From NCBI RefSeq assembly GCF_000424005.1, contig NZ_AUJB01000012.1:124001-188000 (forward strand): a stretch of 64,000 bases of DNA. Reading direction: 5' to 3'. This DNA is from Pseudobutyrivibrio ruminis CF1b (GTDB lineage Bacteria; Bacillota; Clostridia; Lachnospirales; Lachnospiraceae). This document shows, piece after piece, positions 13,813 through 31,202 of the stretch. Both the position numbers and the translations under genes were made by a program. The notes under the pieces were generated by a model that saw only the letters and a program-made list of their open reading frames with translations, had not been told where the DNA came from and ran no database searches. Within the stretch, counting starts at the first letter, position 1, and each line of letters starts with the position of its first letter.

Positions 13813-14790
13813 TTAATCTAAATTCAGCATCTCCTGGTAGAAAGCAAAGTAATCCTTTCTGCCCTGCTTAGTAAACTCTATAGCAGTCCTTGGATGTTGA
13901 TTCAAAAGACCAGTTGTAAGGTACTGCATATCGTAGCCCCATACAACTCCCTGCTCTTTTAGAGGAAGCATAAAGTCCTCTACAAACTTGATGGCATATC
14001 TTTCTTTATACTTAGGATTCTTTAAAAATCCTAAAAGAAGCTCCATTGCACAGTTTCCTGCACCACGTCCCATGCTGCAATATGTAGCATCAAGATAATC
14101 AACATTATCTCCAACTGCCTCTATGGTATTAGCGAATGCAAGCTTTTGATTATCATGAGCATGCATTCCCACACGCTTGCCATATTTTGATGCGATTTCG
14201 TAGTACATATCAGCTATACGCTCTGTCTGTTCAGGATAAAGAGACCCATAACTGTCTACAATGTAAATACAAGAAATTGGAGTCTGACAAACAATATCAA
14301 GGGCTGATTTGATGTCTTCCATAGAGGCTGTAGAAATAGCCATAATATTACAGGTAGTCTCGTAGCCCTTATTATATGCATCCTCAATCATCTGAACAGC
14401 TCCTGGAAGCTGATGAAGATATGTAGCAACTCTAATTAGATCCACAGGGCTTTCAGCCTTTGGACGAATATCTTCCTTGTAATTACATCTTCCTACATCA
14501 GCCATAATAGCAAGCTTTAAATCTGTATCGTTTTCACCAACAATTTTTCTAATATAATCATCAGATGAAAACTTCCAAGGGCCAAATTTGTCCTCATCAA
14601 ACTGCTCTTTATCGGCTCTGTAGCCCATTTCCATATAATCAACTCCAGCCTTTACATTTGTAAGATAAAGAGCCTTTGCAAATTCATCTGTAAAATAAAA
14701 ATCATTTACAAGACCTCCATCACGTAAAGTTGCATCAACAACTCTGACGCTCTCTCTTACCTCTAAAAGCTTAGATATTTCTTTTTTCAT
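13813..14790 (-). CDS. DRE-TIM metallolyase (HMG-CoA lyase-like aldolase domain protein)
   Basis: 325 residues. The TIM-barrel motif DATLRDGG near residue 20 and the metal-binding HAHDNQ near 215 define the family that includes 4-hydroxy-2-oxovalerate aldolase and isopropylmalate or homocitrate synthases. The C-terminal communication domain of DmpG and the leucine-type regulatory domain are not evident, so it is a catalytic-domain-only member of uncertain reaction. Such proteins often sit with glycan or nucleotide-sugar genes; the convergent neighbour is a glycosyltransferase, but this is only suggestive. The terminal sequence QGRKDYFAFYQEMLNLD is complete. Confidence 0.75.
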   Translation of the reverse strand: MKKEISKLLEVRESVRVVDATLRDGGLVNDFYFTDEFAKALYLTNVKAGVDYMEMGYRADKEQFDEDKFGPWKFSSDDYIRKIVGENDTDLKLAIMADVGRCNYKEDIRPKAESPVDLIRVATYLHQLPGAVQMIEDAYNKGYETTCNIMAISTASMEDIKSALDIVCQTPISCIYIVDSYGSLYPEQTERIADMYYEIASKYGKRVGMHAHDNQKLAFANTIEAVGDNVDYLDATYCSMGRGAGNCAMELLLGFLKNPKYKERYAIKFVEDFMLPLKEQGVVWGYDMQYLTTGLLNQHPRTAIEFTKQGRKDYFAFYQEMLNLD

Positions 14791-14832
14791 TTATGTGGTC
14801 CTCCGGTTGCTTTAGTGCTTAAAAGTATTAAA

Positions 14833-14864
14833 GTACCTCCTAGTATAAACATACCAGGAGGCAC
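14833..14864 (-). terminator. Hairpin after chemoreceptor 1
   Basis: CCTCCT-A-GTAT / ATAC-C-AGGAGG stem with an AAAC loop. A weak T-rich tract follows on the minus strand. It lies between the chemoreceptor stop (14898) and the aldolase start. Confidence 0.55.
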
Positions 14865-14897
14865 TGTCAACTATAATATTATTAAGTTCTAAAGGGA

Positions 14898-16754
14898 TTA
14901 TACTATCTCAAACTTCTGAGTGCTAGCATTCAATTGCTTGGTTACATCATTATTCTGATCCATCGCTTCATTAATGCCCTGGATTTCACCAACAATTTCT
15001 GTTGCTGAGGCTGCTGACATACCAATAGCACTAGAGCTTTCTTCTACTGAACGAGAAATAGTTTCAATCTGTCCAGCCATCTCATTCATCACAGCATTTA
15101 GATTGTCAGCTTTTTCAGTAAAAGTAGCAAGCATATCCTCAATCATTGAAGCTGTATCTTCATATTTAGAACCAGTTTCTACAAAGGCATCATAATCAGC
15201 AAGTACATTTTCATTGATAAATTCAATAACCTGAATAGCATTATCTGAAAGTGTCTTAACAGCAGCTGTAACCTTACCGGAAATCTCCTGAATATTACCA
15301 GCTGTATCTCTAGAATTTGCTGCAAGCTTACTAATTTCATCTGCTACTACAGCAAAGCCCTTTCCAGCTTCACCAGCACGAGCTGCTTCAATTGATGCAT
15401 TAAGTGCAAGTAAGTTTGTCTGACTAGCAATATCCAAAATCTCATTAGTCAAATCACTAATCTGGTTAACCTGCTCAGACTCCTTAACAGACTCCTCGAG
15501 AACCTTTGAAAGCTCTTCCATCTTAGCGCCAGTATTATCTTTCTTTTCCGTTGCTTCCTTCTTTATAGAATTAGCAGCTTCTTTAATTTCATCTGCCTTT
15601 TCAGCACCAGCTCTTGCTTCAGAATCAATAGCATCCGTAGCCTCTCTAACTTCCTGAACTTTGTCATTAAGCTCAGAAGTTGTTGCAGAAACATTTTCCA
15701 TAGATGCTGCAAGCTCTTCCATGGCTGCAGATGTATTTGTTACATTATCACTAGCACTTTGAATCTTTACAATAACACTATCTGCAGATGATGTAAGAAC
15801 TGTTGCTCCATCCTTAACATCTCTGATTACACCCTGCAATGTTCCTAAGAACTGATTGATACAATCAGATATAAGTGCAAGCTCTGTTTTTGTTTTTGTG
15901 TTTATTCGGGCAGTTAAATCGCCCTTGCCCTTATTGATATTATTAATGATAGCTTGTAATTCATATGAAATACCAAGTATAGTCTTATTAATTCTAACAA
16001 ATGAAAGCACAAAGCTAAGTATAATCAAGACAACAACCACTGCCATGACTATATATCCCTTTACAGAAACCTGGGCAATGTAACCATCCAAATAAGCGCT
16101 AAAGCCCTCGCTTAGAGAATTAATTCCCTCATCAACAGCATCTAAAGCATCATTTGTTGCAACAAGGCTTGTTCCGTAATCACCAGATACACAGCCAATT
16201 GCTCCCGTCAAATCACCTGATTTGATAAAGTTTTCCATAGCACCAGCTGCAGCAACTAATGCCTCTGCGCTAGCTCTGAGATTATCAACTCTCTCCTGCC
16301 CATCTGGTAGGTTTCCAACCAGTATACTAGCATCCAAATAATCAAGATGAGAGCCAATATCATTCATATAACCTTCCATCTCCGCAAATTCTTCAGCTGG
16401 CATTTCCTTGCCTGCCTCAAGTTGTCCTAATGTACGATTAATTTCAGCTGAAATATGAACTACATCTTGACGTAATGCAGCCGATTCCTGTGCGCAAATA
16501 AGTTCATTTTCACTTGCTACTAAAGCCAGTGACTTTACGCTTTGCATAGCTGAGTTGGAAATCACTGCATATATTATAAATGCCGCAAGTATAGCAACAT
16601 TTACAATTATGTTTTGAAAAGAAATTGATTGGAAAAAGTTGCCTTTATTATTTTCAACAACCTTTCCAACAGCTTTAAGATTTTCCTTTTGCTCAGCTGT
16701 AAGATTTTTATCAAGCCTCTGTTTTATTTTCTCTTGCCTTTCTTCTGTTCCCAT
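14898..16754 (-). CDS. Methyl-accepting chemotaxis protein 1
   Basis: 618 residues. A cytoplasmic N-tail of about 45 residues precedes TM1 (46-66). A helical extracellular sensor (about 67-232) follows, then TM2 (about 233-255), a HAMP region and the signalling domain. The hairpin tip is canonical ([37 protein letters not shown]). It senses an unknown ligand and controls CheA. GGGGGTG precedes the ATG. The TM1 segment is closely copied in the relic downstream of chemoreceptor 2. Confidence 0.93.
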
Positions 16755-16929
16755 TGCGCACCCCCATTTAAATTAATGGCTAATTAATGGCTAATAAAAT
16801 TATATACCCATACGTTTTAATTGGTTAAGAGGTGTCACAAAAAAAACATATAATGTTTAAAAAATGTACAATTTCTATGGATTTTTATGAGATAAAACAT
16901 TTGATTAATCTCATTTTAAAAACTAAAAA

Positions 16930-16957
16930 AGAGCTCTTGGATAAACCAAGAGCTCTA
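16930..16957 (-). terminator. Terminator in the chemoreceptor intergenic region
   Basis: Perfect 11-bp stem AGAGCTCTTGG / CCAAGAGCTCT with loop ATAAA, then TTTTTT on the minus strand. It ends transcription coming from chemoreceptor 2 and the relic. Confidence 0.85.
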
Positions 16958-16981
16958 AAATACAATATAACAATGACAGTC

Positions 16982-17064
16982 GGGCTCATTTAAAGAAATC
17001 TCCTTTGGAGATTTGAGCCCTCCAGTACATTTTTGTGAAAGCTTTCAGCTTCCCCAAAAATGTA
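16982..17064. repeat. Two further hairpins in the relic region
   Basis: GGGCTC...GAGCCC (16982-17020) encloses AAATCTCC-TTT-GGAGATTT with an 8-nt bulge. TACATTTTTG (17026-17035) pairs with CAAAAATGTA (17055-17064) around GAAAGCTTTC. Together with the terminator they fill the gap between the relic and chemoreceptor 1. Confidence 0.6.
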
Positions 17065-17066
17065 AT

Positions 17067-17112
17067 TTAGAACTTACCAGCAGTAGCAGCTTCCTCAACT
17101 GAAACTGCAACT
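17067..17112 (-). pseudogene. Duplicated 3' end of the GGGtGRT gene (fragment)
   Basis: These 46 nt match 20535-20580, the last 15 codons and stop of the GGGtGRT gene, at 45 positions (one A/T difference near 17081). In frame it reads VAVSVEEAATAGKF and stop. Nothing else of that gene precedes it; upstream on the minus strand it is joined directly to a chemoreceptor N-terminus relic. Confidence 0.9.
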
Positions 17113-17214
17113 TACATTATTCATGTCATTGTTTGAAACAATTGCATAGATAATAAATGCAGCTAGAATAACTGCATTTACAACAATATTTTGGAAGGTA
17201 ATTGAAATCAATTA
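17113..17214 (-). pseudogene. Relic of a chemoreceptor N-terminal membrane segment
   Basis: Just after the TAG stop of chemoreceptor 2 the minus strand reads TAA TTG ATT TCA, then an in-frame [18 protein letters not shown] segment. That segment is about 70% identical to TM1 of chemoreceptor 1 ([18 protein letters not shown]). After about 30 residues it runs into the GGGtGRT fragment and stops. It is not expected to be translated. Confidence 0.85.
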
Positions 17215-18939
17215 CTAAATCTTTGTAAAAATAGCTGTTTCCTCTTCAAGCTCTCCAGCTATCTTCTGGTTCTCGTCCATACGTTTAGAAATATTATCCA
17301 TATCATATACCAGATTCTGAGTGCTTTCGGCTGCAGAAGAAACGCCCTTAACACCATCTTCTATGGCCGAGGTAATACTACTAATGGATTCTGCTATCTC
17401 AGTGAATTTATCTTTAAATCCTTCTGTTATATCAGTAAAATCAGCCATAACCGATTCAATATAATCAGCATTATCCTTATACTTTTCACCATCTTCTACG
17501 AAACGTTCAAATTCTGGAAGAATAGAATTCTGCATGTAATCTACTAACTCATTTGCATTATCTGCGAGGTTATGAACCGCATTAACTACTACAGAGTTAA
17601 TCTCCTGAATATTAGCAGCAGTCTGACGGCTGTTTTCTGCAAGACCACCAATCTCATCTGCAACAACAGCAAAACCTTTTCCTGCCTCTCCCGCTCTGGC
17701 AGCTTCAATTGAAGCATTTAAAGAAAGCAAATTGGTCTGGCTTGCGATACTCATAATATCATCTGTAAGTGAGTTTACCTGATCTACACTTTGGCTATCT
17801 GTAATAGCCTGATTTAAAGCTGCAAGAATGTTATCAACCTTTTTATTTGTTTCATCCATGTTCTCTCGAGCATTCTGTTCCATAACATCAGCATGCTCCT
17901 TCATAGTCTTAGAATATTCGTTGATTTCACGGCTCTTATTCGCCATCTCATCAACTTCGATTCTTACCTGCTCTGTGTTGTTATTTATCATGCCAGCACT
18001 ATTTGCCACCTCCTGCATGGTAGCAGAAAGCTCTTCTGTTAATGCTGACAAATCCGAAGCACTGTCATTTGATGTTTTGACACTTCCCATAACATCATTA
18101 ACTACCTTGTCCATGGCTGTTGAATTGTTAGTAATCATGATAAAAATACCCTGAAGACGTTCTATAAACTCATTAATACCACGACTAAGCATTCCTATTT
18201 CATCGTTGGACTCAATAGTTAATCTTCTTGTCAAATCACCTTCTCTACTATTTATACCATCAATAATTTCATGGAGTTCTGATTCTGCCTTAGTAACAGG
18301 GCGCAATATTTTTCTTGCAACAACTATAACAGCCGCAATTACTGAAATTATACTTATAATTACAATTATCAAACTTGCAAAACTTGCAACCATGTTTGCG
18401 GTAGATAAAGCCTGTCTTTGAACATCTGATTCAGTGTGAATTGCTGCAATGACATTATCTATATCCTGATTAAGTTTCTGTGCACTTTCAGCTACCTGTC
18501 CGTTTGCAGTAGCATATGCATCCTTCGTTCTCTGATTAGCACTCTGTGCCAGAAGAATCATTATAGAATCCTTAAAGCTTTGGAAGTCAGCTTTCATAGT
18601 TTCAAAATTTGTATCTTCAGCCGCAAACTGATTTCCATACTCGACCATGGCATTATCTAATACAGCTTCCTCTTCTTCTATCTTTGATACCACTGAAGTC
18701 ATTGTCTCAAAATCAGTAGCAACAATATGAGAAAGAGCAAGTGAATGAATATCCTTTGCTGTTTGGCCAATTGTATCAAGTTCTGTAATAGCAACCATAT
18801 ATTCATCTGCAATTTTTGTAGCAGTATGATTAACCTTGCTCAAATTAAAGAGTGCCATAACATTAGAAAAAATAGATAGAATTCCCAATAAAAGGACTGG
18901 GATTAAAATATATAATCTAATACTTGTTTTCTTACTCAT
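17215..18939 (-). CDS. Methyl-accepting chemotaxis protein 2
   Basis: 574 residues. TM1 is about 9-30, followed by a four-helix-bundle sensor, TM2 (about 175-208), HAMP ([18 protein letters not shown]) and the signalling domain with the canonical tip [20 protein letters not shown] and [13 protein letters not shown]. It lies 13 nt after an orphan solute-binding lipoprotein gene and is therefore likely to sense that protein in its ligand-bound state, as with MalE and Tar. The stop TAG is followed at once by TAA and the relic. Confidence 0.93.
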
Positions 18940-18951
18940 CCTGACGCCCTC

Positions 18952-20403
18952 CTATTGCTTATTTTCCTCTGAATTTTCTGTTGTAGTTTCTTCTATAATT
19001 TCCTCTGTTGTTTCTTCTGTTGTTTCTTCTGTTGTTTCTTCTGTTGTCTCTTCTGTAGCTTCTTCTACAACATCTTCAGTTGCTTCTTCTTTATTTTCTT
19101 CTGGAGCAGCTTCACCTTCTTCTGTTACCAGGTCACCAGTAGATTCCTCTCCAGTAATTTCTGTTACCATTTCATTTAAAAGAACCTGAACATCTTTACC
19201 CGAAGGATTACCCTGGCTCATAAGCGTTCCAAAGTTAGCTGCCGGATCCCAATAGGTTCCGCCAACTCTCTGCAAGCTTGAATATTCTGCCTGCTGTTGT
19301 AATGCCTGAATAGCTTTAGATTCTGCAACAGCACCTGAGCCTGAAGCATTTGTATTAGATGGTCCCTGTCCTCTCATTTCAAATCTTAAAGTCTGATTTT
19401 GCTCATTGGTCATCCAATCTGCAAATTTCGCTGCCCAAGCCTGATTTTTAGAATAAGAATTAACGCCTACAAGCTTATATCCTGCATAGCTGGACATCTG
19501 AACCTGCTGTCCTGCCACAGTATACGTAGGAAGCTTGCATGCAGCATAATTATCACCCCAAGCTTCCTTTATTCCATTTTCATCCCAAATACCACTAACA
19601 CCAGCAGCAAAGGTGCCATCAGCTGCCCCACCTACAAATCCATCATTACTCTCACATGTAAATGCTGGATTTCTACCAATTGCAGCCATAGCCTCTGCAA
19701 CATCTCGACCAGTTATATTTGTGTATTTTGCATTCCAATTGCAGTAGGTAGAAATTCCGTCATCATTAAGACCAATCTCCATGTCTGTGTTTCCAAAAAA
19801 CGCATACATGTACCAACCAGAATTCATCTCCATAAATACCTTTTGTCCTGCAGCACCTGCAGCTGCCATAAGACTATCCATAGACTGAACTGCTTCATCA
19901 CTTATAACCGCTTTATTATAAAATAAGAAATATCCATTATCTGCTGTCAATGGGTAAGCATATAATGTTCCATTTACGGAAGCAGCGTCACTTGCAGCTG
20001 CTAAATTTCTACCTGAAATCTCACTGTCATTTTCAACTTTTTTAAGGACACCAGAAGCAACTAAAGCCATGAGCTGATCATCAGCAAAAGTGAATACATC
20101 TGGAGCATTTAACACATCTCCAAGTATTTCATCCTTAGCACTGGATTCACTATGAGCCTCAAAGGTAATTTTGAAATTTGCCATACTACCATACTCTTTA
20201 ATGAAGCCACTAATTATTTGATTAACCAGCTCTTCATCTTCATCGGCTCCCCAAACTCTTAGAGAAACATCACCCGATGGCAATCCAGTCTCTTCCTCAG
20301 GAGCTTCGGCTGTTACTGCAGTCTCCTCCTTGGAACCACATCCTGCGAAAAGAGCTGTGATTAACAATAAAGAAACAAAAAAACTAAAAAACCTTTTGCT
20401 CAT
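18952..20403 (-). CDS. Solute-binding lipoprotein (MalE-like family 1) with acidic repeat tail
   Basis: 483 residues. Signal and lipobox LFAGC near residue 20. An extracellular solute-binding domain (about 45-410) follows with maltose-binding-protein-like pieces (LRVWGADEDEELVNQII, LYAYPLTADNGYFLFYNK, GVSGIWDENGIKEAWGDNYA). The last 55-60 residues are a Glu/Thr repeat tail (EETTEETTEETT...). The frame opens at a GTG at 20424 that contains AGGAGG; the ATG at 20403 is the likely start. No permease or ATPase lies nearby; chemoreceptor 2 follows in the operon, suggesting a sensory role. Confidence 0.87.
   Translation of the reverse strand: MSKRFFSFFVSLLLITALFAGCGSKEETAVTAEAPEEETGLPSGDVSLRVWGADEDEELVNQIISGFIKEYGSMANFKITFEAHSESSAKDEILGDVLNAPDVFTFADDQLMALVASGVLKKVENDSEISGRNLAAASDAASVNGTLYAYPLTADNGYFLFYNKAVISDEAVQSMDSLMAAAGAAGQKVFMEMNSGWYMYAFFGNTDMEIGLNDDGISTYCNWNAKYTNITGRDVAEAMAAIGRNPAFTCESNDGFVGGAADGTFAAGVSGIWDENGIKEAWGDNYAACKLPTYTVAGQQVQMSSYAGYKLVGVNSYSKNQAWAAKFADWMTNEQNQTLRFEMRGQGPSNTNASGSGAVAESKAIQALQQQAEYSSLQRVGGTYWDPAANFGTLMSQGNPSGKDVQVLLNEMVTEITGEESTGDLVTEEGEAAPEENKEEATEDVVEEATEETTEETTEETTEETTEEIIEETTTENSEENKQ
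18990..19065. repeat. Tandem 12-nt repeat encoding Glu-Thr-Thr-Glu units
   Basis: On the plus strand the unit TTTCTTCTGTTG recurs with minor changes, about four to five copies. It lies inside the binding-protein tail, stays in frame (12 nt), and could change copy number by slippage without frameshift. Confidence 0.8.
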
Positions 20404-20445
20404 AGAAAAACCTCCTACATGCACAAATCAATTGCTAGCAATAGA

Positions 20446-20474
20446 ATAGCATATAAATGTTACAGAATTGTCAA
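20446..20474 (-). promoter_or_regulatory. Promoter of the binding-protein/chemoreceptor operon
   Basis: A perfect TTGACA (20469-20474, minus strand) lies just after the GGGtGRT terminator. The -10 is imperfect: ATGCTA or TATTCT at 16-20 nt. Confidence 0.5.
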
Positions 20475-20489
20475 CAAGGGCAATAAAAA

Positions 20490-20516
20490 AGAGCCCTCAG
20501 GAAGCCTGAGAGCTCT
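20490..20516 (-). terminator. Terminator after the GGGtGRT gene
   Basis: AGAGC-c-CTCAGG / AAG / CCTGAG-a-GCTCT stem, followed on the minus strand by TTTTTT. Confidence 0.88.
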
Positions 20517-20534
20517 TTAATAATTTAAGTATAA

Positions 20535-21545
20535 TTAGAACTTACCAGCTGTAGCAGCTTCCTCAACTGAAACTGCAACTGCAACTGTAGCACCAACCAT
20601 TGGGTTGTTACCCATACCGATAAGCCCCATCATCTCAACGTGTGCAGGAACTGAAGATGAACCAGCGAACTGAGCATCTGAGTGCATACGTCCAAGAGTA
20701 TCTGTCATACCGTATGAAGCAGGACCTGCTGCCATGTTATCTGGGTGAAGTGTACGTCCTGTACCACCACCTGATGCAACTGAGAAGTACTTCTTACCAA
20801 GGTCTACGCACTCCTTCTTGTATGTACCAGCTACTGGATGCTGGAAACGTGTAGGGTTTGTAGAGTTACCTGTGATAGAAACACCAACGTTCTCGTGGTG
20901 CATGATAGCAACACCTTCCTGAACATCATCAGCGCCGTAGCACTTAACTGTTGCACGAAGACCATTTGAGTATGCCTTCTCAGAAACGATGTTAAGCTTT
21001 GCTTCCTTATAATCGTACTTTGTCTCAACAAATGTGAAACCGTTGATACGTGAGATAATCTGTGCAGCGTCCTTACCAAGACCGTTAAGGATAACACGAA
21101 GAGGCTTCTGACGAACCTTGTTAGCCTTCTCAGCGATACCGATAGCACCCTCAGCTGCAGCGAATGACTCGTGACCTGCGAGGAAGCAGAAGCACTCTGT
21201 CTCCTCCTCAAGGAGCATCTTACCAAGGTTACCATGGCCAAGACCTACCTTACGGTGATCAGCTACAGAACCAGGGATACAGAAAGCCTGAAGACCCTCT
21301 CCGATTGCAGCAGCTGCATCAGCAGCCTTACGGCAATCCTTCTTAATTGCGATTGCAGCACCTACAGTGTAAGCCCAGCAAGCGTTCTCGAAGCAGATAG
21401 GCTGAATCTTCTTAACCTGCTCGTATACATCAAGACCAGCGTCCTTTGTAATCTTCTCAGCTTCTTCGATTGAGCTGATACCATACTTATTAAGAACAGC
21501 ATTGATCTGATCAATTCTTCTCTCATATGATTCAAATAAAGACAT
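20535..21545 (-). CDS. GGGtGRT protein (conserved partner of a NifU-like scaffold)
   Basis: 336 residues, full length. The naming motif is present in SVASGGGTGRTLHPDNMAAG near residue 260; other conserved-looking pieces are HGNLGKMLLEEETECFCFLAGHE and VAVSVEEAATAGKF at the C-terminus. The biochemical role is not known. It is always described beside an Fe-S scaffold-like gene, here 21 nt upstream in the same operon. GAAAGGAG precedes the ATG. The GC content and codon choice (many TAC, CTT, GTT) suggest high expression. Its last 46 nt are duplicated at 17067-17112. Confidence 0.9.
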   Translation of the reverse strand: MSLFESYERRIDQINAVLNKYGISSIEEAEKITKDAGLDVYEQVKKIQPICFENACWAYTVGAAIAIKKDCRKAADAAAAIGEGLQAFCIPGSVADHRKVGLGHGNLGKMLLEEETECFCFLAGHESFAAAEGAIGIAEKANKVRQKPLRVILNGLGKDAAQIISRINGFTFVETKYDYKEAKLNIVSEKAYSNGLRATVKCYGADDVQEGVAIMHHENVGVSITGNSTNPTRFQHPVAGTYKKECVDLGKKYFSVASGGGTGRTLHPDNMAAGPASYGMTDTLGRMHSDAQFAGSSSVPAHVEMMGLIGMGNNPMVGATVAVAVSVEEAATAGKF

Positions 21546-21566: not shown

Positions 21567-22259
21567 TTATTCCTGACGTGGATCGATAATCTTAACAGCA
21601 TCGTCAACACGACCGTACTGGCCCTTTGCCTTCTCCCATGCTGTGTTAGGATCATCACCCTTCTTAATGAAGTCTGTCATCTTTCCAAGAGAAACAAACT
21701 GGTAACCGATAACTTCGTTATCAGCATCAAGTGCGATACCTGTTACATAGCCTTCAGCCATCTCAAGGTAACGAACACCCTTTTCCTTTGTTGCGTACAT
21801 TGTACCAACCTGTGAACGAAGACCCTTTCCAAGATCCTCAAGACCAGCACCAACTGCAAGTCCGTCATCAGAGAATGCAGACTGTGTACGTCCGTAAACA
21901 ATCTGAAGGAAAAGCTCTCTCATAGCTGTATTGATAGCATCACAAACAAGGTCTGTATTAAGAGCCTCAAGGATTGTCTTTCCCTGAAGGATCTCTGCTG
22001 CCATAGCAGCTGAATGTGTCATACCTGAGCAACCAATTGTCTCAACAAGAGCTTCCTCAATAACACCATTCTTAACATTTAAAGATAATTTGCAGGCACC
22101 CTGCTGTGGAGCACACCAGCCTACACCGTGTGTGAAACCGCTAATATCAGAAATCTGCTTAGCGTGTACCCATTTTCCCTCTTCAGGGATAGGAGCTGGT
22201 TCATGCTTTGCGCCCTTAGCTACAGGACACATGTTTTCTACTTCTTTTGTGTAAATCAT
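21567..22259 (-). CDS. NifU/IscU-like iron-sulfur scaffold family protein
   Basis: 230 residues. Cysteines at GVGWCAPQQGACKL, in VETIGCSGMTHSAAM and in TDLVCDAINTAMREL are spaced like the IscU/NifU_N cluster-binding cysteines. The C-terminal third (about 150-230) is extra compared with IscU. It probably binds or transfers an Fe-S cluster together with the downstream GGGtGRT protein; the target is unknown. AAAGGAG precedes the ATG. A hairpin lies in its leader. No nifS/iscS gene is adjacent. Confidence 0.85.
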   Translation of the reverse strand: MIYTKEVENMCPVAKGAKHEPAPIPEEGKWVHAKQISDISGFTHGVGWCAPQQGACKLSLNVKNGVIEEALVETIGCSGMTHSAAMAAEILQGKTILEALNTDLVCDAINTAMRELFLQIVYGRTQSAFSDDGLAVGAGLEDLGKGLRSQVGTMYATKEKGVRYLEMAEGYVTGIALDADNEVIGYQFVSLGKMTDFIKKGDDPNTAWEKAKGQYGRVDDAVKIIDPRQE

Positions 22260-22324: not shown

Positions 22325-22462
22325 ATAATTTAGAACGTGCTTATAAACATAAGCGCGCTATCGAGAATATTTTCTCATTTTTTGTTTATTTAGTAAAGTA
22401 TTCTTTTGAACTTTTTGTTAAAAATTTGACTAAGAGTTATGCATATAACCTAACTCATCATT

Positions 22463-24844
22463 CTATTCATAAATTCTAATGTCCGTAATGGCACATTGGT
22501 CACCTGTAATAGAAAAATATAGTTTTTCTGGCATAAGAAGAAACATAGTTTTATTCTTGATTTTAAAATCAGAATTTTCAATGGCCATCTCCAGAGTGTC
22601 GCCAGATATCCTAAACGAAATATGGCATTCCATTCCCTTTTTATTTTTCTCTTTCCAGGTATCCCAATTCTTAAACTCCCTAGTTTTTTTAACTATAGGA
22701 TCATTGGTAGCAAGTGTTGAATCACTCTTAAGCTCTCCATTCATTTGAATAAGTGCATATTCCAAATAATTTTCCCCATCAACCTTGCCATCATCTGAAG
22801 AGTACACGACTATAAAAGGGCAATTCCAAATGAAATTTGCCATTGGAAGGCTCATTGTATGGAATTCACAATTCAATCCATCCGTTATAAGAGTACCATC
22901 AGACGATGCCGAACGGAAACGATCAATCTGAAGATTAGGTAAATCTCCTTCAAGTCTGTTAATGTAATTGTTGGCTGGAGCAATTCGTGTGAACTGATCA
23001 TCTGTAAATATCTCTTCTGTACGTTCTATATTTATGTTACTAATATTACAATATTCACCTGTGATGCCTATATAGGCGTACTTTGAATTCTCAGGTAAAG
23101 CCATAATAACATCTATAACTTCAGAATCACTTGATATGCTTATCTTTAGATGATCCCCACATTTAGCTGCAGTCATCTCATAGGCAGCACCGTAAAACTC
23201 CGAAATGCTTCCACCTTTTTGAGAAATTGTAACTTCCATGTTCTTAGCCTTAGTGGAATTATAGTGCCCATTAAACCAAATCTCCCCAAATTCTAAATAC
23301 CCAAACGCGCTTATACTCTTCTCATCAGAATGGATTCTTCCATCGTAAGCATCAAAAACAATAATTGATGGTGCCGAAAATCCCGTTGGCGAATCGCTAT
23401 TAAGGCTCCATTCAAAACCGATTTTTGTAAACTTATCATCAATAAGAATTCCCTTTGTAACATTACTTCTATATTCATTAACAGAGAGGTATTCATCAGG
23501 CTTATTATCTATATCTTCCACATTTTCACGTAACTTATAGTCCTTATCGCTGTCAATAAGACTAATCATAATAGCTGCAAAACGTGGATCAAATGCTGTT
23601 CCTGATTTTTTTAAAAATTCTTCTCTAACAATCACTTGAGGATACGCATCCCTGTCACTTTTTCTTGAAGTCATATTGTCATAATAATCTGCAACAGCAA
23701 TTATTCTGGCTATCTCTGGAATCTCATCACCTTTTAAATGGTCAGGATACCCACTTCCATCATATCTTTCATGATGATAATGTGCTCCATCCTTTAAGAA
23801 AGGATATTCAGTAATATTAGAAAGAATATCTGCGCCAATAACCGTCTTTCTTCGATAGATTTTTAATTCTTCATCATTTAAATCCTTGCCCTTACTAACA
23901 ATGGATTCTGGAAGTCCAACCTTTCCAATATCATGTAATAAGGCAGCAGAATATATTTCATCACATTCCTTATCACTCTTCCCACAGGTTTTTGCTATTG
24001 CCTTTGCATAATTTGCAACACGATCCGAATGACCTAATGTATATACATCCTTAGCCTCAATAGCCCCCATGAAAGCAGATGATGTCTGATAGAAAAGACG
24101 TTGCATACTCTCCTGCTCTTTTTTCAAAAAGTCAATCTCGCTACGCTTGCCCTCCTCCATTTCTCGATTAAGCTTAAATAAAGCTACTACGTAAATAAAT
24201 ATGCAAGTAATAATAATTCCTATATTGGTCATTGATGTTCCCGCTATAAATAATTGAGCAATTGAGCAGATTAAAGGAACAACAATAAAAAGAGTATTTG
24301 AAAGATTAATTATCCAATCTAAATATCTTTTATATTTTATAATTGCAGTCAATTGAATCAAAGGCACGAAGAATGGGAAAATATAACTTATAATATATCC
24401 CGGTCCTCTGCTATAAATATTATTTGAATCAAATGTATAATATATTCCTGATAAGCCACAGAAAATACAAAGTATAATTCCAATAATCATAAATATCGTG
24501 CAAAAATCCAGTCGTAGCGGAGTCTTCTTCATCTTTCCTTCATTCTTATATAAATCAATAAGATATAGATTGAATGCCAATACAATAACATCAGTAAATA
24601 GGTAATCCATGAAAATAGAAAGACGATGCATGAAAAGACCTAATTGGGATATATCACCATTGTAGAAGTATGAAAGTCTATCAGAATAAAGCAAAGTCAT
24701 TGCGCTTAGTTCCAAAAACAACAGCGTAATTCTTCTGCTTAAAGGCAAAGCTCTAGCAACAATTACAAAAATTGCTATTGTTCCGCAAATACTGCTTAGA
24801 GCCAGCATCAGATCCAATTGATGTTTGATAAAAAATTCTAACAT
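22463..24844 (-). CDS. Membrane HD-GYP phosphodiesterase with duplicated C-terminal domain
   Basis: 793 residues. Seven or eight membrane helices (about 10-225) precede a short coiled segment. The HD-GYP domain (about 255-430) has HSDRVANYAKAIA, LLHDIGKVGLPE and HHERYDGSGYP, all expected for cyclic-di-GMP hydrolysis. The C-terminal 320 residues hold two copies of an unrecognised domain (about 470-607 and 635-793), each with a V-DA/SS-DG block and ending in IGITGEYCNISNINIE or FSITGDQCAITDIRIYE. Third gene of an operon, 16 nt after the hybrid kinase stop. Downstream gap 22260-22462 shows no terminator. Confidence 0.85.
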   Translation of the reverse strand: MLEFFIKHQLDLMLALSSICGTIAIFVIVARALPLSRRITLLFLELSAMTLLYSDRLSYFYNGDISQLGLFMHRLSIFMDYLFTDVIVLAFNLYLIDLYKNEGKMKKTPLRLDFCTIFMIIGIILCIFCGLSGIYYTFDSNNIYSRGPGYIISYIFPFFVPLIQLTAIIKYKRYLDWIINLSNTLFIVVPLICSIAQLFIAGTSMTNIGIIITCIFIYVVALFKLNREMEEGKRSEIDFLKKEQESMQRLFYQTSSAFMGAIEAKDVYTLGHSDRVANYAKAIAKTCGKSDKECDEIYSAALLHDIGKVGLPESIVSKGKDLNDEELKIYRRKTVIGADILSNITEYPFLKDGAHYHHERYDGSGYPDHLKGDEIPEIARIIAVADYYDNMTSRKSDRDAYPQVIVREEFLKKSGTAFDPRFAAIMISLIDSDKDYKLRENVEDIDNKPDEYLSVNEYRSNVTKGILIDDKFTKIGFEWSLNSDSPTGFSAPSIIVFDAYDGRIHSDEKSISAFGYLEFGEIWFNGHYNSTKAKNMEVTISQKGGSISEFYGAAYEMTAAKCGDHLKISISSDSEVIDVIMALPENSKYAYIGITGEYCNISNINIERTEEIFTDDQFTRIAPANNYINRLEGDLPNLQIDRFRSASSDGTLITDGLNCEFHTMSLPMANFIWNCPFIVVYSSDDGKVDGENYLEYALIQMNGELKSDSTLATNDPIVKKTREFKNWDTWKEKNKKGMECHISFRISGDTLEMAIENSDFKIKNKTMFLLMPEKLYFSITGDQCAITDIRIYE

Positions 24845-24860
24845 CCTTCTTTCATCCTCT

Positions 24861-27800
24861 CTACAATGAGTGTAATTTTGTAAGCTTGGTATATAGACTT
24901 CTACATTCAGATAGGAAACTGTCTGTATTATCTGCTATATAATCTAAATCATTACGATTTCCTGCAGCCTCCAAAGACTCTGCAACTGCCACCAAATCAT
25001 TAGCGCCTACAATTGAACAGGAGGTTCTTAAACTATGCATTTTAATAGTGTATAGCTTGATATCTAAATTCTTATAAGCATCATCAATACCGTTAACATA
25101 TTTATTTATGGCATCCATAAATGTAAGCAATGATGTCAGATATTGACCAGCCCCACCATTATCTCTAATTCCATCTCGTACATTAAGTTCCTTAATGTTA
25201 TAAAGCCATTCTTTATCTTTTGGAAGTTCAGAATCCTCTTCATAACCATCCGTATCAGATAGCTTCATGTAAATTTTTGTTGGAATGTGCTTTAAAATTG
25301 TTTTTTCCAACAATTTGCTATCAACAGGTTTTAACAATACACCATTAAAACCTTTAGACTGATAGAATTCTTCATCCTCTATTGGTACGGAAGAAATAGC
25401 ATAAACAGGAATATCGGGAACAATATCACGTACACGAATTAAAAGTTCTGAAGCAGTTATGTCAGGCATATGATAATCCATCAATACAAGGTTATAGCTT
25501 CCAAATTTTATTTTCTCAAGGCATTCTTCACCTGTTGTGGCTATTCCTACAAACATCCTTGTTTCTTTCAGAATGTTCTTGACAATATTCAAGCTTTTCA
25601 TATTGTTATCTACAACAAGAACTTCCGCCTCTGGAGCAACAAAACTAGGAATATAAAGTCCCTGGGTTACCCTGTTCTCTTTTTCCTTAAATAAACTAAC
25701 TGGTGTTGAATTAACTATTTTTTGTCTAACCTTAAAAGTGAAGGTTGCCCCTTGCCCCTCTTCACTGGAAACCTCGATTGTTCCATTCATTAGATTAGCG
25801 AACATTCTAGATAAAGTAAGTCCCAATCCAAATTCATAAGGAAGACCTACCGTCATATATCCAATAGTTTCAAAGGAGTTAAATATAACATCCTTGAATT
25901 CATCACTAATTCCTGCTCCTGTATCCTTTACAGAAATGCTCAAATCACAATAATTATTCTCTATTGAATCAACTGTTGCCCGTATAGTCACACCGCCATC
26001 AGAAGTATACTTAACCCCATTATTAATCAATGTCCAAATAATCTGGCTTAATTTATCAACATCTCCAAAAAGGCGGACTGGCATCTTTTCATCCACTTCG
26101 AACTCAAAAGATAGGCCTTTTTCATTGCAAAGATGTCTCGTTATTGATATTGCGCTTTGCATAGCCTCCACAGTATCGTATTCCTTTTCATTAACTGTAG
26201 CCTTTCCTGATTCTATATTGGATATATATATTAACGAATCAATTAACTCCAATAGATTTTCAGATTCATTTTTTATTTCCATAGCATCATTAATAACTGA
26301 GAAGAAATATTCATTAGAAGAAACTGTAGGATCTCTTCTAAGAATCATTTCATCGGCACCCATAATCGTAATCAATGGGGTCCTAAGGAAATTTGAAATA
26401 TTAGCAAGGAATCGTTCTTTTACGCTATTTGCTCTTGCCAGTTCATCAGTGGTTTCCTGTAATTTTTCATACTGTTTACTTATAGTTGTTTTAAACAATA
26501 TTCTCCATGCCAAAACACCACCTATAATTAGGAACAATAATAAAATAACAGCCTGAACAAAAGCCATTTCATAAAGTAATGGTTTCTTTTCAATGAGAAA
26601 CTTTTTTTCCCGAAGAATTTCGTTTCCACTTTGATTCAGCATTTGAAGATGTAGATTGTATGTTCCATATCTAAGACCGGTAAATTCCAACGGTCTAAGT
26701 TTATTAAGAAGCTCAGTTGCCCCCTGATCCTTCACTCCCTCTAGACATATATGTATCTTAGGATTAGTTTCAGAATAATCCAAAATAGCTGGAACAAAAG
26801 TAATTCGATTAGCCCCTGCTGGAATGATATATTTTCCATTTTTATCGGGATAAATGTATTTGCCGTCACATATAACCGAACGTAATTCAAAATTTAAATC
26901 AACATATTCTTCCACAAACTTTTCTATGTTAAATTTACAAACACCCTTATGACTTGATACATATAAATTTGAATTCTCATCTAAAGAACTGTAACTATTT
27001 CCCGTAGGAATACTTGGCAAGCCATTCAAAAGATTATAATGTATATATTCATTAACATTATCATCAATCATACTCTGAGCATTTACGCAATAAATACCAT
27101 CAGAAGCAAGAACCCATAAGTCCTTACCATTTTCTTTAAAATATACATCATAACAATTGTTGTAAGGGAAAGATGTTACATTAACAATAATGTCGTTTTT
27201 AATATATTGTATGGAGTTTGAAGTAATTACCCAAAATACTTCCCTTGTTTTGTCCCAGATAATTCGCATAACAATATCAGAGGTCAAACCATTGTTGATA
27301 CTATAATGTCTTAGACCTCTTTCGTTCAAAATATATATTCCGTTTCCATTTGTGCCTATATATAAATCTTTATCTTTTTCATAAAGAGACAAAATACTGT
27401 CATCTATTCTTAAGCTTTCAATATTCTTCTTCGATTGGACTTTAAAATCCTTAATATAACTTATTCCTTTATTACCACCAACTACTATTGTGCCATCGGA
27501 TAACTCTAATGAGCAGCGAACCTGCACACTAGGTAATCCCTCTTTCGTAGTAAAGTTTATAATTTCACCACTTTTTTTCTGACATACAAGGCCTAATCCA
27601 TTGTTGTATACGCATAACCATAAATTATCCTGTGAATCACTCATTATATGCCGAACACAAGATTTTCCTATATACTCTGTTAGTTTATTTGTAACTTGAT
27701 TTCCATAAACATCTAATATATAAAGGCCTTCCTCTGTTCCCATATAAAGGTAACTTTTATTTATATAATTTGCGTAAACCACAAGATTATTAAAATCATA

Positions 27801-28889
27801 ACGACTGGTAACGCTGGTAAAATTGCAGGTAACTATTTTCATAACACCTGCTGTAGATGAAGCAATCCAAAGATTCCCCTGGTAATCAGACGTGAGCATT
27901 TCTATATCCGTATTCAGCGGAAGATCTTTTATTTCCTTGAAATTTTTATGTTCATCTATATAACCAATAGAAGTGTGTGATGCTGCCCATACCCTGTCGC
28001 AATCAATACTAAGCCAATAAATGTAATCTAGTGGCTTCGCATTAATCTTTCGTAAATCCGAATAGGAATCACCAAAATTTCCGTAGTAGATTAATCCCGA
28101 TTCTGTACCTATATATACCTTTCCAACATCATTAGGATCAGCAATAATTGTGGTAATAAAATCCAAATCTAAATCTGAAGCTCTAAGAATTTGTTCTACT
28201 TTTCCATCTATAAGTTTGAATATATTACCATTATCGCAATATCCATATATATCGCCATAATAATCTCGTGTAAGTCTGACTATCCTTCCAGAATCTAATC
28301 TACTGTCATCAATATATTTAATATTGTCATCTTTATCGATAACAGCAATACCTTTTGAGGTTCCAATAATAAAGTTTCCTCTACCATCCTCAATTATGGA
28401 CATAATGCATCGGGAAGGCAGGCCGTCTTCATCTGTAATATGTCTTCTATTCCTCTGTTCATCAAGAATAACCAAGCCATTATCATTTGTACCCACCCAC
28501 ATACGGCCATTTCTGTCCTGATACAGGGTTCTACTACTAGTAAGTCCATCGTATGAATCGAGCCTTTCAAAATCAGCTCCGTCATATCTTATTATTCCAC
28601 TATATCCTCCTATCCAAATATAACCAGAATCAGAACACAAAATATAATTAGCATCTGAAGTAGGTAGACCATTTGTCGAATCATATACTTTTGCCGTATA
28701 TCCAAAACCGTTGAGCTGATTAGAGGCAGCATATCCACCGCCGCCTTTTTTCTCCGTTTTCTCCTGCTTTATCTCAGTATCTTTTCCATAGACATAAGGT
28801 TTCTTTTCGAAAGAAACCATCAAAGCAAAAATCAATATTAATAATGGCAATACTTTTATTCTTCGACTCATACTATAAATTGCCCCCAT
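24861..28889 (-). CDS. Propeller-type hybrid sensor kinase with a degenerate H-box
   Basis: 1342 residues. An N-terminal signal anchor leads to many Reg_prop blades (about 60-650; for example GLPSRCIMSIIEDGRGNFIIGT) and a Y_Y_Y domain (about 690-770). A TM (about 778-800), HisKA, HATPase_c, REC and Hpt domains follow. The H-box reads FLANISNFLRTPL: Asn replaces the phospho-acceptor His. The ATPase boxes are mostly intact (TLINNGVKY, DTGAGIS). REC has LVVDNN and phospho-acceptor LMDYHMPD; Hpt has MHSLRTSCSIVGA. The start ATG overlaps the previous stop (TGATG); an ATG at 28868 is an alternative. Confidence 0.85.
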   Translation of the reverse strand: MGAIYSMSRRIKVLPLLILIFALMVSFEKKPYVYGKDTEIKQEKTEKKGGGGYAASNQLNGFGYTAKVYDSTNGLPTSDANYILCSDSGYIWIGGYSGIIRYDGADFERLDSYDGLTSSRTLYQDRNGRMWVGTNDNGLVILDEQRNRRHITDEDGLPSRCIMSIIEDGRGNFIIGTSKGIAVIDKDDNIKYIDDSRLDSGRIVRLTRDYYGDIYGYCDNGNIFKLIDGKVEQILRASDLDLDFITTIIADPNDVGKVYIGTESGLIYYGNFGDSYSDLRKINAKPLDYIYWLSIDCDRVWAASHTSIGYIDEHKNFKEIKDLPLNTDIEMLTSDYQGNLWIASSTAGVMKIVTCNFTSVTSRYDFNNLVVYANYINKSYLYMGTEEGLYILDVYGNQVTNKLTEYIGKSCVRHIMSDSQDNLWLCVYNNGLGLVCQKKSGEIINFTTKEGLPSVQVRCSLELSDGTIVVGGNKGISYIKDFKVQSKKNIESLRIDDSILSLYEKDKDLYIGTNGNGIYILNERGLRHYSINNGLTSDIVMRIIWDKTREVFWVITSNSIQYIKNDIIVNVTSFPYNNCYDVYFKENGKDLWVLASDGIYCVNAQSMIDDNVNEYIHYNLLNGLPSIPTGNSYSSLDENSNLYVSSHKGVCKFNIEKFVEEYVDLNFELRSVICDGKYIYPDKNGKYIIPAGANRITFVPAILDYSETNPKIHICLEGVKDQGATELLNKLRPLEFTGLRYGTYNLHLQMLNQSGNEILREKKFLIEKKPLLYEMAFVQAVILLLFLIIGGVLAWRILFKTTISKQYEKLQETTDELARANSVKERFLANISNFLRTPLITIMGADEMILRRDPTVSSNEYFFSVINDAMEIKNESENLLELIDSLIYISNIESGKATVNEKEYDTVEAMQSAISITRHLCNEKGLSFEFEVDEKMPVRLFGDVDKLSQIIWTLINNGVKYTSDGGVTIRATVDSIENNYCDLSISVKDTGAGISDEFKDVIFNSFETIGYMTVGLPYEFGLGLTLSRMFANLMNGTIEVSSEEGQGATFTFKVRQKIVNSTPVSLFKEKENRVTQGLYIPSFVAPEAEVLVVDNNMKSLNIVKNILKETRMFVGIATTGEECLEKIKFGSYNLVLMDYHMPDITASELLIRVRDIVPDIPVYAISSVPIEDEEFYQSKGFNGVLLKPVDSKLLEKTILKHIPTKIYMKLSDTDGYEEDSELPKDKEWLYNIKELNVRDGIRDNGGAGQYLTSLLTFMDAINKYVNGIDDAYKNLDIKLYTIKMHSLRTSCSIVGANDLVAVAESLEAAGNRNDLDYIADNTDSFLSECRSLYTKLTKLHSL

Positions 28890-31024
28890 CAATATCTTCT
28901 AAAATTACTGTTGTTTATAACTGTTTTAACATCACTGATACATTCCAATAATGCATCAACACATTTAGGATCAAACTTTTTTCCCGACTCAGATTTAATA
29001 ATCTCTATAGCTTCATCCAATGTGCAGGAGATTTTAAAGCCTCTAGGTGAGATTAATTCATCAAGTTCATTAGCCAGTCCCATAACTCTTGCTGACAGCG
29101 GTATAACTTCTCCGTGAAGTCCCTCAGGAAAGCCCTTTCCATCCCATCTTTCATGGTGATAAGCTGCCATATTTCTGGCTTCTTTCAGATACGTATCATC
29201 ATTTACTATTGTTATAGCCTTTTCCATAATGCGTCTTCCGTAAACCGTATGTAATTTGTATATCTCCTCTTCCTCATTAGTAAGTTCATCTCGCTTATTT
29301 ATAATAGAATCAGAAATCTGAATCTTTCCTATATCATGAAGAGGCGCAGACATTTCAACCTCCTCCATATACTCATCAGAAAGCTTTTCAGAATAATAGC
29401 CCTTTTTCTTTAAACCATTTAATATAATTCGAACATATGCTGCTGTATTATGAACATGAGAAGTAGAATTGATGTCTCTACTCTCAACAATACCTGCCAA
29501 AGTAATAATAAGCCCCGTCTGAGTTTTTCTCGTTGTATCCGCAAAATGCCGTAAATCTCTAACATATTCAGCCATTTCTGATTCCATTTGACATATAGTT
29601 CTATAAAGCTGTTCTACCTCATCCCCTGTGCAAATGCCTATTGAACGTGTCTTTCGAACATTTTCATCTAATGCATTTTGATTGCCATGACTATCCAGAA
29701 ACTCACATGCAGCATTTGTAATACAATTAATAGGAATAACAAGCTCATATCCTGCCAGAGTAAAACCAAAAATCATAATCATAACAACAAATCCAGAAAA
29801 ACATAGGAAAATTTTCATCAAATAATCCCTGGCATATTCGGAAAGAAATGACATATACACGTCAGAAATAGCATAACAAACTATTTCCCCATTGGAATTT
29901 CTTACAGGGTAAGAAGCAAACATAACGGATTTATCACTATTAAACATAATCTCATTGATTACTTCTTTATTTTTAAAATAATCATTGTACTTAGAAAACT
30001 CATCATAATAAGGAATGATTATTCCATTATCTGAAAGAGTAACCCCTTCTTTTCCTACCTGAAATAGGTATAAAAAACCATTCTGTTCAGGAATAAAAAA
30101 TGAAAGTTTTACAACACCCTGCGTGTTGTTTAACAGCATTTTCATTTGTTTTTCTACATCATGATACCCTTTGGCTTTGTCACCCCACTTTACATATTCA
30201 TATATTTCATCACCATCTAAGATTGATGCAGCGTTTTCTACTATTGCAAAAGCCTCATCTGAATACTCTTCTTTACAATCTTCATAATAGAAAGTAATAC
30301 TAATCCAAATCATAATAATGCTTAGTAAACAAATTGTTGTAGAAAGCATAACACTTATTTTTTTATGAATAGCTTTATTGGTACTTATATTTCTGGTTTC
30401 TCTGATTTCCTGTAATGTTAATGGTTTTTGTTTCCATCCATAATTTGCAATATAGTCTCTCGTTCTTTCTGGAATAAGGTGGAAAAATAAGGTAGCCAAT
30501 CCAATAGCAATACCTTTATCAACGATATTTAGTAAAAAAACAGCAAAAATAACAACAAGCATATAGCTAAATTCATTTTTCACATTTACATACTGGAATA
30601 TTTCTTCAACATATTCTTCAAAAGGAAGGCCAGAAATGTAGTTCTGAATAAAAGCTCCGAAAACAGAACATACCAGTGCTGCCGTTAGAACAGAATATAG
30701 AAATTTTAGAATTTTTGAAGACTTTGAGTAACGGAAAAACCAGCCTGCTAAAATAGCGATAATGACTGTAATTAAAGAATAATATAGATATCCAGGAGAA
30801 AAAATATTTAAAAGCATGCTTGTTATCAAACTAACAATAATGCCAGGCAAAACGCCTCCAAGAAATGTGACAAAAATGGTTCCTACAGTATCTAAGTACA
30901 TAGGAAGATTCATTTTTATAGCAAGATAATTTAAGCAGACATTCAATAATATACCTGCAACACTAAAGATAATAAGATAATATTTGCTATAGTTTCTTTT
31001 AGTATAGTGAAAGCTCAAAACCAC
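28889..31024 (-). CDS. Membrane sensor HD-GYP protein
   Basis: 711 residues. An N-terminal membrane domain of about six helices (about 15-190; LPMYLDTVGTIFVTFLGGVLPG) resembles ECF-transporter S components or related sensor modules. A TM, an extracellular sensor (about 245-400), another TM and a HAMP-like linker follow. The HD-GYP domain (about 500-700) has HVHNTAAYVR, LHDIGKIQIS and HHERWDGKGFP. The GYP box is GFP, a common variant. No ATG fits the start; GTG at 31024 or TTG at 31018 is used, with GGGGG nearby. It is the first gene of the HD-GYP/kinase/HD-GYP operon. Confidence 0.82.
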   Translation of the reverse strand: MVLSFHYTKRNYSKYYLIIFSVAGILLNVCLNYLAIKMNLPMYLDTVGTIFVTFLGGVLPGIIVSLITSMLLNIFSPGYLYYSLITVIIAILAGWFFRYSKSSKILKFLYSVLTAALVCSVFGAFIQNYISGLPFEEYVEEIFQYVNVKNEFSYMLVVIFAVFLLNIVDKGIAIGLATLFFHLIPERTRDYIANYGWKQKPLTLQEIRETRNISTNKAIHKKISVMLSTTICLLSIIMIWISITFYYEDCKEEYSDEAFAIVENAASILDGDEIYEYVKWGDKAKGYHDVEKQMKMLLNNTQGVVKLSFFIPEQNGFLYLFQVGKEGVTLSDNGIIIPYYDEFSKYNDYFKNKEVINEIMFNSDKSVMFASYPVRNSNGEIVCYAISDVYMSFLSEYARDYLMKIFLCFSGFVVMIMIFGFTLAGYELVIPINCITNAACEFLDSHGNQNALDENVRKTRSIGICTGDEVEQLYRTICQMESEMAEYVRDLRHFADTTRKTQTGLIITLAGIVESRDINSTSHVHNTAAYVRIILNGLKKKGYYSEKLSDEYMEEVEMSAPLHDIGKIQISDSIINKRDELTNEEEEIYKLHTVYGRRIMEKAITIVNDDTYLKEARNMAAYHHERWDGKGFPEGLHGEVIPLSARVMGLANELDELISPRGFKISCTLDEAIEIIKSESGKKFDPKCVDALLECISDVKTVINNSNFRRY

Positions 31025-31108
31025 ACCCCCGCAAAAAACCTAGAGTACACAGTACATAAATATCTTATAACAATAATATGTTTATTTTGTTTATTAAATA
31101 TTAAAAAA

Positions 31109-31175
31109 GCCTGTCCAAGAGATTGGTATCCTTCTCCTAATTTATTAGTGGAAGGATTCAATCACCTGAGCAGGC
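31109..31175 (-). terminator. Long hairpin terminator after the beta-helix gene
   Basis: GCCTG/CAGGC outer stem and a long inner stem (GATTGGTATCCTTC with GGAAGGATTCAATC), then TTTTTT on the minus strand. It separates the topB operon from the HD-GYP operon. Confidence 0.8.
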
Positions 31176-31202
31176 GTATTAATATATTAATATTGATTTA
31201 GT

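Follow-up and report, generated by a model that had tools for sequence, protein, structure and literature searches.

The window analysed here, a stretch of 64,000 nucleotides from Pseudobutyrivibrio ruminis CF1b, carries on its minus strand a cluster of genes in the order NifU_N-like protein (21567-22259), GGGtGRT (20535..21545; PF14057), extracellular solute-binding protein (SBP; 18952..20424), chemoreceptor 2 (MCP2; 17215..18939), a short chimeric scar (17067-17214), chemoreceptor 1 (MCP1; 14898..16754) and, last, an HMGL-like gene (13813-14790). The GGGtGRT gene, next to the NifU_N-like gene, is intact and was recognised by Pfam and alignment, SBP and MCP2 (bearing 4HB, HAMP and MCPsignal domains) by Pfam scan, and MCP1 by Pfam scan together with locus comparison. 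The terminator that now lies 3' of the intact GGGtGRT gene (20485..20516, minus strand) is common to four relatives, G019, G023, G025 and G027. The scar is 3.4 kb distant from the intact gene, and the only long genes within the insert that separates them (17215-20424) are SBP and MCP2; a Pfam scan of these two long frames revealed no integrase or transposase gene.

Comparisons were made within a sample of 29 Pseudobutyrivibrio genomes, that of the window included, which are cited by G numbers and their loci by L numbers. The content of the interval between the GGGtGRT and HMGL-like genes (13813 to 20535 in the window; L039-L063) ranges from no chemoreceptor, for example in G007, G020 and G016, up to an SBP and two chemoreceptors, and the interval is a hot spot of variable chemoreceptor content, with or without an SBP according to species. 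Among named organisms, a GGGtGRT search gave Butyrivibrio fibrisolvens 16/4 and Pseudobutyrivibrio ruminis as the nearest. Across the GGGtGRT pair from this interval, ~8.8 kb (22424-31203) is missing from G028, G025, G023, G007, G021 and G006, the alignment of which skips this stretch with at most ~4.6 kb of other DNA in its place; the GGGtGRT-side part of it is present in G019, G027 and G001.

The scar is composed of three pieces, all read on the minus strand. MCP2 ends in TAG (17217-17215) followed at once by TAA (17214-17212), as the original prediction had it, and the first bases after its stop (TAATTGATT; 17206..17214) align with those found downstream of MCP2 in G013 and G023. The second piece (17113..17205) is a fragment of the chemoreceptor-1 family comprising codons ~43-73 and the first membrane helix, identified by protein match and codon-position counts; its 31 codons (17205-17113) match residues 43-73 of MCP1 with 68% identity (E 2.5e-8, for a search of one whole genome), and with 76% identity over 75 nt at the DNA level, in agreement with the resemblance to the first transmembrane segment reported earlier. 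The third piece (17067..17112) is a GGGtGRT 3' end of hybrid haplotype, recognised by alignment and from a table of 23 intact tails. As had also been noticed, it repeats the end of the intact gene, here measured as 14 sense codons and the TAA stop, with 17112-17067 equal to 20580-20535 at 45/46 nt (98%; E 9.5e-16). Both the tail and the helix matches are far above chance. The helix fragment ends at 17113 and directly abuts the tail at 17112, and comparison with known alleles, among which the donor allele itself does not figure, would allow 1-3 bp of microhomology at most.

The helix frame indeed continues that of MCP2, but the GGGtGRT tail, which had been placed in the same frame, lies in a different one, and the helix frame meets a TGA 38 codons from a TTG. 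It is very improbable that this frame, which starts 3 nt after the MCP2 stop, is translated into a small membrane peptide: it is open, is shared with G019 at 100% identity, and begins near the preceding stop, but its start codon is weak, no ribosome-binding site is visible by eye, its last part is out-of-frame GGGtGRT sequence, and its conservation is uninformative because the only two copies are identical. The scar in itself displays no sign of function. A 20-nt pattern spanning the joint gave 0 exact matches in viral_contigs, and a phage or viral origin of the joint was set aside.

The family to which the helix fragment belongs is widespread in the genus, with its first transmembrane segment matched in 22 of the 29 genomes, the match in G019 being to the scar alone; MCP1 itself went undetected in that genome by this segment. 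Apart from the two scars, the 22 matches listed occupy reading frames that stay open for 369 to 652 codons. Relative to MCP1, the fragment shows 27 differences in 30 codons, distributed 6, 5 and 16 by codon position, and this excess at the third position (16/27; binomial p 0.005) indicates that the fragment diverged as part of a working gene before it was cut. Its closest match in the genus reaches 71% protein identity, while a search of 397 family genomes matched seven, its own included, of which the best other shares 78% over 60 nt; no donor of the fragment was thus found among the 29 genus or 397 family genomes. The third chemoreceptor supposed by the original prediction can be retained in so far as the joint does hold a chemoreceptor fragment, which is of the MCP1 family, and as a member of this family stands whole directly behind MCP2 in G013 and G010. 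In G013, ~115 nt lie between the MCP2 stop and the whole MCP1-family gene. Since the window keeps nine bases after this stop and then resumes at codon 43, ~225 bp are missing relative to G013, and a second deletion of this size lies between MCP2 and the helix fragment.

Traces of possible rearrangement were also met with at chemoreceptor loci of other genomes. The G001 chemoreceptor at L053:7127-8848 has a C-terminal half with 87% DNA identity to MCP1 of the window over 1086 nt and an unmatched sensor half, possibly a sensor-domain swap at the same locus; a 2.7-kb insertion in a chemoreceptor gene of G001 (L053) was only apparent, being a run of N. In G023 (L064:3350-3420), a near-identical MCP2 is followed by a KIKERLD piece that resembles the N-terminus of an MCP1-type protein and runs into a resident-type terminator, and this stretch is, as judged by eye, a second and different scar.

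Nearly all of the sampled genomes (27/29) match 16900-17214 at E 0.001 or better, mostly by the GGGtGRT tail alone, and the longer matches indicate where that tail belongs. The homologous stretch exceeds the segment originally noted: 16900-17111, which runs from the GGGtGRT 3' end across the 3'UTR and terminator into DNA beyond, is 98% identical to G028, in which the match extends over 212 nt (tail, two hairpins, terminator and MCP1 upstream region) and in which the intact gene ends there and is followed by MCP1. The gene end and hairpins match at 95% in G007, with no MCP1 behind; in G004, G024 and G026, GGGtGRT is likewise followed by hairpins, which have diverged, then by the terminator and MCP1; and G006 shows the hairpins, MCP1 being absent from the 14 kb read. 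A second arrangement, GGGtGRT, SBP, MCP2, MCP1, is found in G027, G013 and G010, and in both G013 and G023 the end of MCP2 continues as TTGATTTT..CTGTG. The window and G019 combine both arrangements, and the joint is shared by these two of the 29 genomes and by no other, with 100% identity over 285 bp. The comparison with sister strains proposed along with the original prediction accordingly returned the same scar in G019 and, in G013 and G010, MCP2 followed by MCP1 without a break.

Since the GGGtGRT gene of relatives finishes at this point and has the same 3'UTR, which in G028 adjoins chemoreceptor 1, the site of the scar is where the gene originally ended. The original locus thus comprises the right part of the tail and all that follows it, and what was replaced is the downstream side of the intact gene. 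The earlier proposal that unrelated genes had been joined is sound in that the chimeric joint records recombination, but these comparisons do not support a simple copying of the GGGtGRT end into a foreign place 3 kb away. Over the 46 nt, the scar tail is 97.8% identical to the intact copy of the window, 93.3% to G007 and 91.1% to G028. In the 14 relative loci that contain it, the GGGtGRT gene itself runs without interruption, at 95.2-99.7% identity.

The haplotypes of the tails bear on how the joint arose. Among 25 GGGtGRT loci of the genus, 23 tails were readable (G008 and G017 were not). A left part GTTGCAGTTTCAG is accompanied by ACA in 8/8 intact tails, and a left part GTAGC[CT]GTATCAG, present in 10 intact tails, by ACT in nine and by ACA in G023; five further tails have other forms. 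The combination of GTTGCAGTTTCAG with ACT occurs in the scar alone, its left part being that of the intact copy and its right part being ACT continued by a 3'UTR of the G028/G007 type. The intact gene of G023 is the reciprocal hybrid and carries the foreign terminator, with its MCP2 on another contig, and the intact gene of the window has the foreign left haplotype, as do G027, G019 and G025. On this pattern of alleles, the scar tail would be the product of a crossover within ~20 identical bases of two GGGtGRT 3' ends. The six hairpin-3'UTR genomes besides the window have the GTAGC left part in five cases and GTTGCAGTTTCCG in G006, and G013 combines the SBP-MCP2-MCP1 order with a GTAGCC...ACT tail; haplotype and arrangement are therefore not strictly linked, which weakens the argument. 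It consists, moreover, of three synonymous sites on the left and one on the right inside the gene, and an unsampled resident allele could carry the combination.

The segment is very probably a scar left at this locus by insertion and displacement. What is observed directly is the three pieces, the place at which the gene end and 3'UTR originally lay, the hybrid haplotype and the presence in two genomes, and from these the course of events may be reconstructed. In the ancestor, GGGtGRT would have been followed directly by the hairpin 3'UTR, the terminator and chemoreceptor 1, while the incoming foreign DNA would have carried GGGtGRT, the other terminator, SBP, chemoreceptor 2 and a chemoreceptor-1-type gene. 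The far end of this DNA, broken within the chemoreceptor-1-type gene, may have been fused end to end with a foreign-haplotype GGGtGRT 3' end, either in a circularised fragment or in a tandem duplication. A homologous crossover between the two GGGtGRT 3' ends, within the ~20 bases in which they agree, would then have spliced the joint to the resident gene end and 3'UTR. Such a sequence of events would leave an intact GGGtGRT gene that has acquired new genes on its downstream side, beyond which the resident gene end persists, and the ~225 bp deletion would have trimmed the chemoreceptor fragment. Taken as a whole, a non-functional recombination scar made by a foreign joint, a crossover at the GGGtGRT 3' end and trimming by ~225 bp is the best explanation, and a likely one; that the joint in particular arose in foreign DNA, with the crossover in the tail coming afterwards, is favoured tentatively. 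The order of the steps, and a circle or duplication rather than linear end-joining, are inferred.

A 46-nt direct repeat flanks the insert, as integration of a circularised fragment by a single crossover requires, and one side is joined by homology, the GGGtGRT gene being continuous across relatives. In comparison with G028, the resident gene end, 3'UTR, terminator and MCP1 are all present, such that no deletion is coupled to the insertion and 46 nt are duplicated instead. Of the repeat copies, that in the scar is hybrid, the intact copy of the window is not, and the intact copy of G023 is. A circle would be expected to leave the resident left haplotype in the intact gene of this lineage, and the foreign one found there calls for a later exchange or for the route through a tandem duplication.

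The same repeat of a gene 3' end around a 3.4-kb insert is reminiscent of an integrative element that uses the GGGtGRT 3' end as its attachment site, with the 46 nt as attL and attR. This is hardly credible, given that the insert has no integrase, its long genes being SBP and MCP2 only, and that in G027 and G013, where SBP-MCP2 also adjoins GGGtGRT, no second tail intervenes between MCP2 and MCP1. A doubtful though more serious possibility is that a linear fragment entered by homology-facilitated illegitimate recombination, anchored in GGGtGRT and joined by its non-homologous far end to the resident tail. One homologous side, one illegitimate joint and resident sequence displaced behind the insert are what has been proposed for Vibrio cholerae effector arrays (PMC5361080), and G006 is a hairpin-type genome with a left haplotype close to that of the scar. 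Linear joining predicts a purely resident tail, however, and the left part of the scar tail has the haplotype of the intact copy. Linear events, as characterised in the Escherichia coli work (PMC3240628), also generally delete resident DNA and mostly show 3-10 bp of microhomology, whereas here no resident DNA is lost relative to G028, 46 nt are duplicated, and microhomology, from the known alleles, would not exceed the 1-3 bp given above.

It is also conceivable, if rather unlikely, that a full chemoreceptor-1-type gene between MCP2 and the tail was eroded stepwise, with lineage-specific small deletions leaving different remnants. In G023, a longer part of the native spacer persists behind the MCP2 (99.5-99.9% identical), and a 22-nt KIKERLD piece comes next, before the resident-type terminator, and the window retains a different part, codons 43-73; the 22-nt remnant is nevertheless short, and its match was made by eye and is unscored. 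Since an insertion joint is still required, erosion would complement a foreign joint followed by crossover in the tail and not substitute for it.

Once made, the joint seems to have travelled. MCP2 and the scar are 99.7-100% identical between the window and G019, and MCP2 is 99.5-99.9% identical to that of G023, yet ilvC has diverged to 94% in G019 and 89% in G023 (96% in G027, in which MCP2 is 84-86% identical); the identities of the segments are strongly mosaic. The near-identity of MCP2 and the scar beside a diverged ilvC suggests that, once the joint existed, homologous exchange probably carried the block from species to species.

Events of this kind are already known. In E. coli, entering linear DNA can be partly degraded, re-circularised and integrated by a single crossover, and 14 sequenced clones of such integrants had 109-950 bp of the target duplicated (PMC3240628). 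The present locus resembles that case in that part of a homologous locus is duplicated and foreign DNA is added without an integrase, and differs in its 46-nt duplication, its natural setting and the reconstructed nature of its steps. In the type VI secretion system arrays of V. cholerae, incoming modules displace effector genes, for which homology-facilitated illegitimate recombination was proposed, with homologous exchange as the suggested route by which a finished array spreads (PMC5361080). There, as here, a module anchored in conserved sequence displaces resident sequence downstream, and the block in the present genomes likewise appears to have spread; the genes here, by contrast, encode chemoreceptors and an SBP at the end of a conserved gene, and the scar is not an orphan gene. 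The displacement of Rhs C-termini (cited in PMC5361080) places displaced 3' ends downstream of the new one, as here, but in this locus the displaced and new 3' ends encode the same protein end. Among the titles listed of papers on GGGtGRT, on Pseudobutyrivibrio chemotaxis or horizontal gene transfer and on 3'UTR RNA motifs, none concerned this locus. Recombination has left at this variable chemoreceptor locus a real, well-resolved scar, and a clean example of its kind: an unusually readable intermediate in the exchange of chemoreceptor sets among gut Lachnospiraceae, with an insert devoid of mobile-element genes. The scar suggests that the end of a conserved gene can act as an anchor for exchange. 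The finished joint is common to two species, and its value is mainly that of an example and a marker.

The DNA behind the tail, originally the 3'UTR of GGGtGRT, may merit a study of its own for its structured RNA. On the minus strand, it comprises a variable hairpin predicted by folding (17026..17064), a conserved bulged-hairpin motif (ACTGGA ... GACTGTC; 16967..17029) supported by the covariance model R1 and by covariation, and the stem-loop of an intrinsic terminator found by terminator scan (16930..16956). The predicted fold of 16920-17130 greatly exceeds those of shuffled sequences in stability (z -7.6), and one terminator-like site was found in 16700-17300 where 0.2 were expected from shuffles. 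Because this is the only such site there, the SBP-MCP2 transcript today probably ends at the hairpins and terminator thus captured. In G019 (L038:1-443), a DDE transposase fragment (PF13751) at the start of the contig meets the captured terminator at the equivalent of window position 16930, with loss of the T run.

The motif is laid out as ACTGGA, a stem of 6-7 pairs, a stem of 4-7 pairs, a three-base loop, a 3'-side bulge of about eight bases and GACTGTC. In an alignment of eight distinct sequences, padded by hand to the structure and therefore favouring it, 98/98 countable cells pair and both sides change in 9/14 pairs, a value reached by 4/500 shuffles; the number of further pair types, 12, was reached by 154/500 shuffles, and sliding the partners lowers pairing to 29-46%. 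Motifs with compensatory changes also occur at L232, L236, L238, L174, L182, L169 and L178. Model R1, by which 16967..17029, one of the model's own sequences, scores 81.6 bits, gave 24 matches in 16 of the 29 genus genomes at E 0.05 or better and 17 matches in 12 at E 1e-4 or better, the model's own sequences included in each count. The exact motif pattern matched 13/29 genus genomes, the match in G012 not being a hairpin, against 3 for a control pattern. Among 397 family genomes, this exact pattern matched 23 and a reversed control ~45; since the control matches more genomes, the other family matches are taken as chance, and by eye no hairpin besides the window's own was found with it. At gathering thresholds, no Rfam family matched the motif at eight loci, four of which have the strict motif, and the best Rfam score in 16700-17300 was RsaF at 27.7 bits, below its cut-off of 60.

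The genes directly upstream of the motif in different loci are GGGtGRT, glutamate dehydrogenase, flavodoxin and solute-binding protein, as assigned by Pfam, and IlvC, the translation of which begins as that of the window's IlvC; two others are presumably a glucose-6-phosphate isomerase-like protein and an HtrA-like protein. It is unlikely, though worth stating, that a structured RNA from the 3'UTRs of metabolic genes (GGGtGRT, glutamate dehydrogenase, IlvC and the glucose-6-phosphate isomerase-like gene), belonging to no Rfam family and seen in this genus only, was handed by displacement to the chemoreceptor operon, where it would exert 3'-end control, perhaps by stabilisation of the mRNA; if so, sensory genes would have come under the 3'-end control of a metabolic gene. 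A different RNA, TwoAYGGAY (RF01731, 75.8 bits), lies between GGGtGRT and the HMGL-like gene in G007 (L040:7339-7498).
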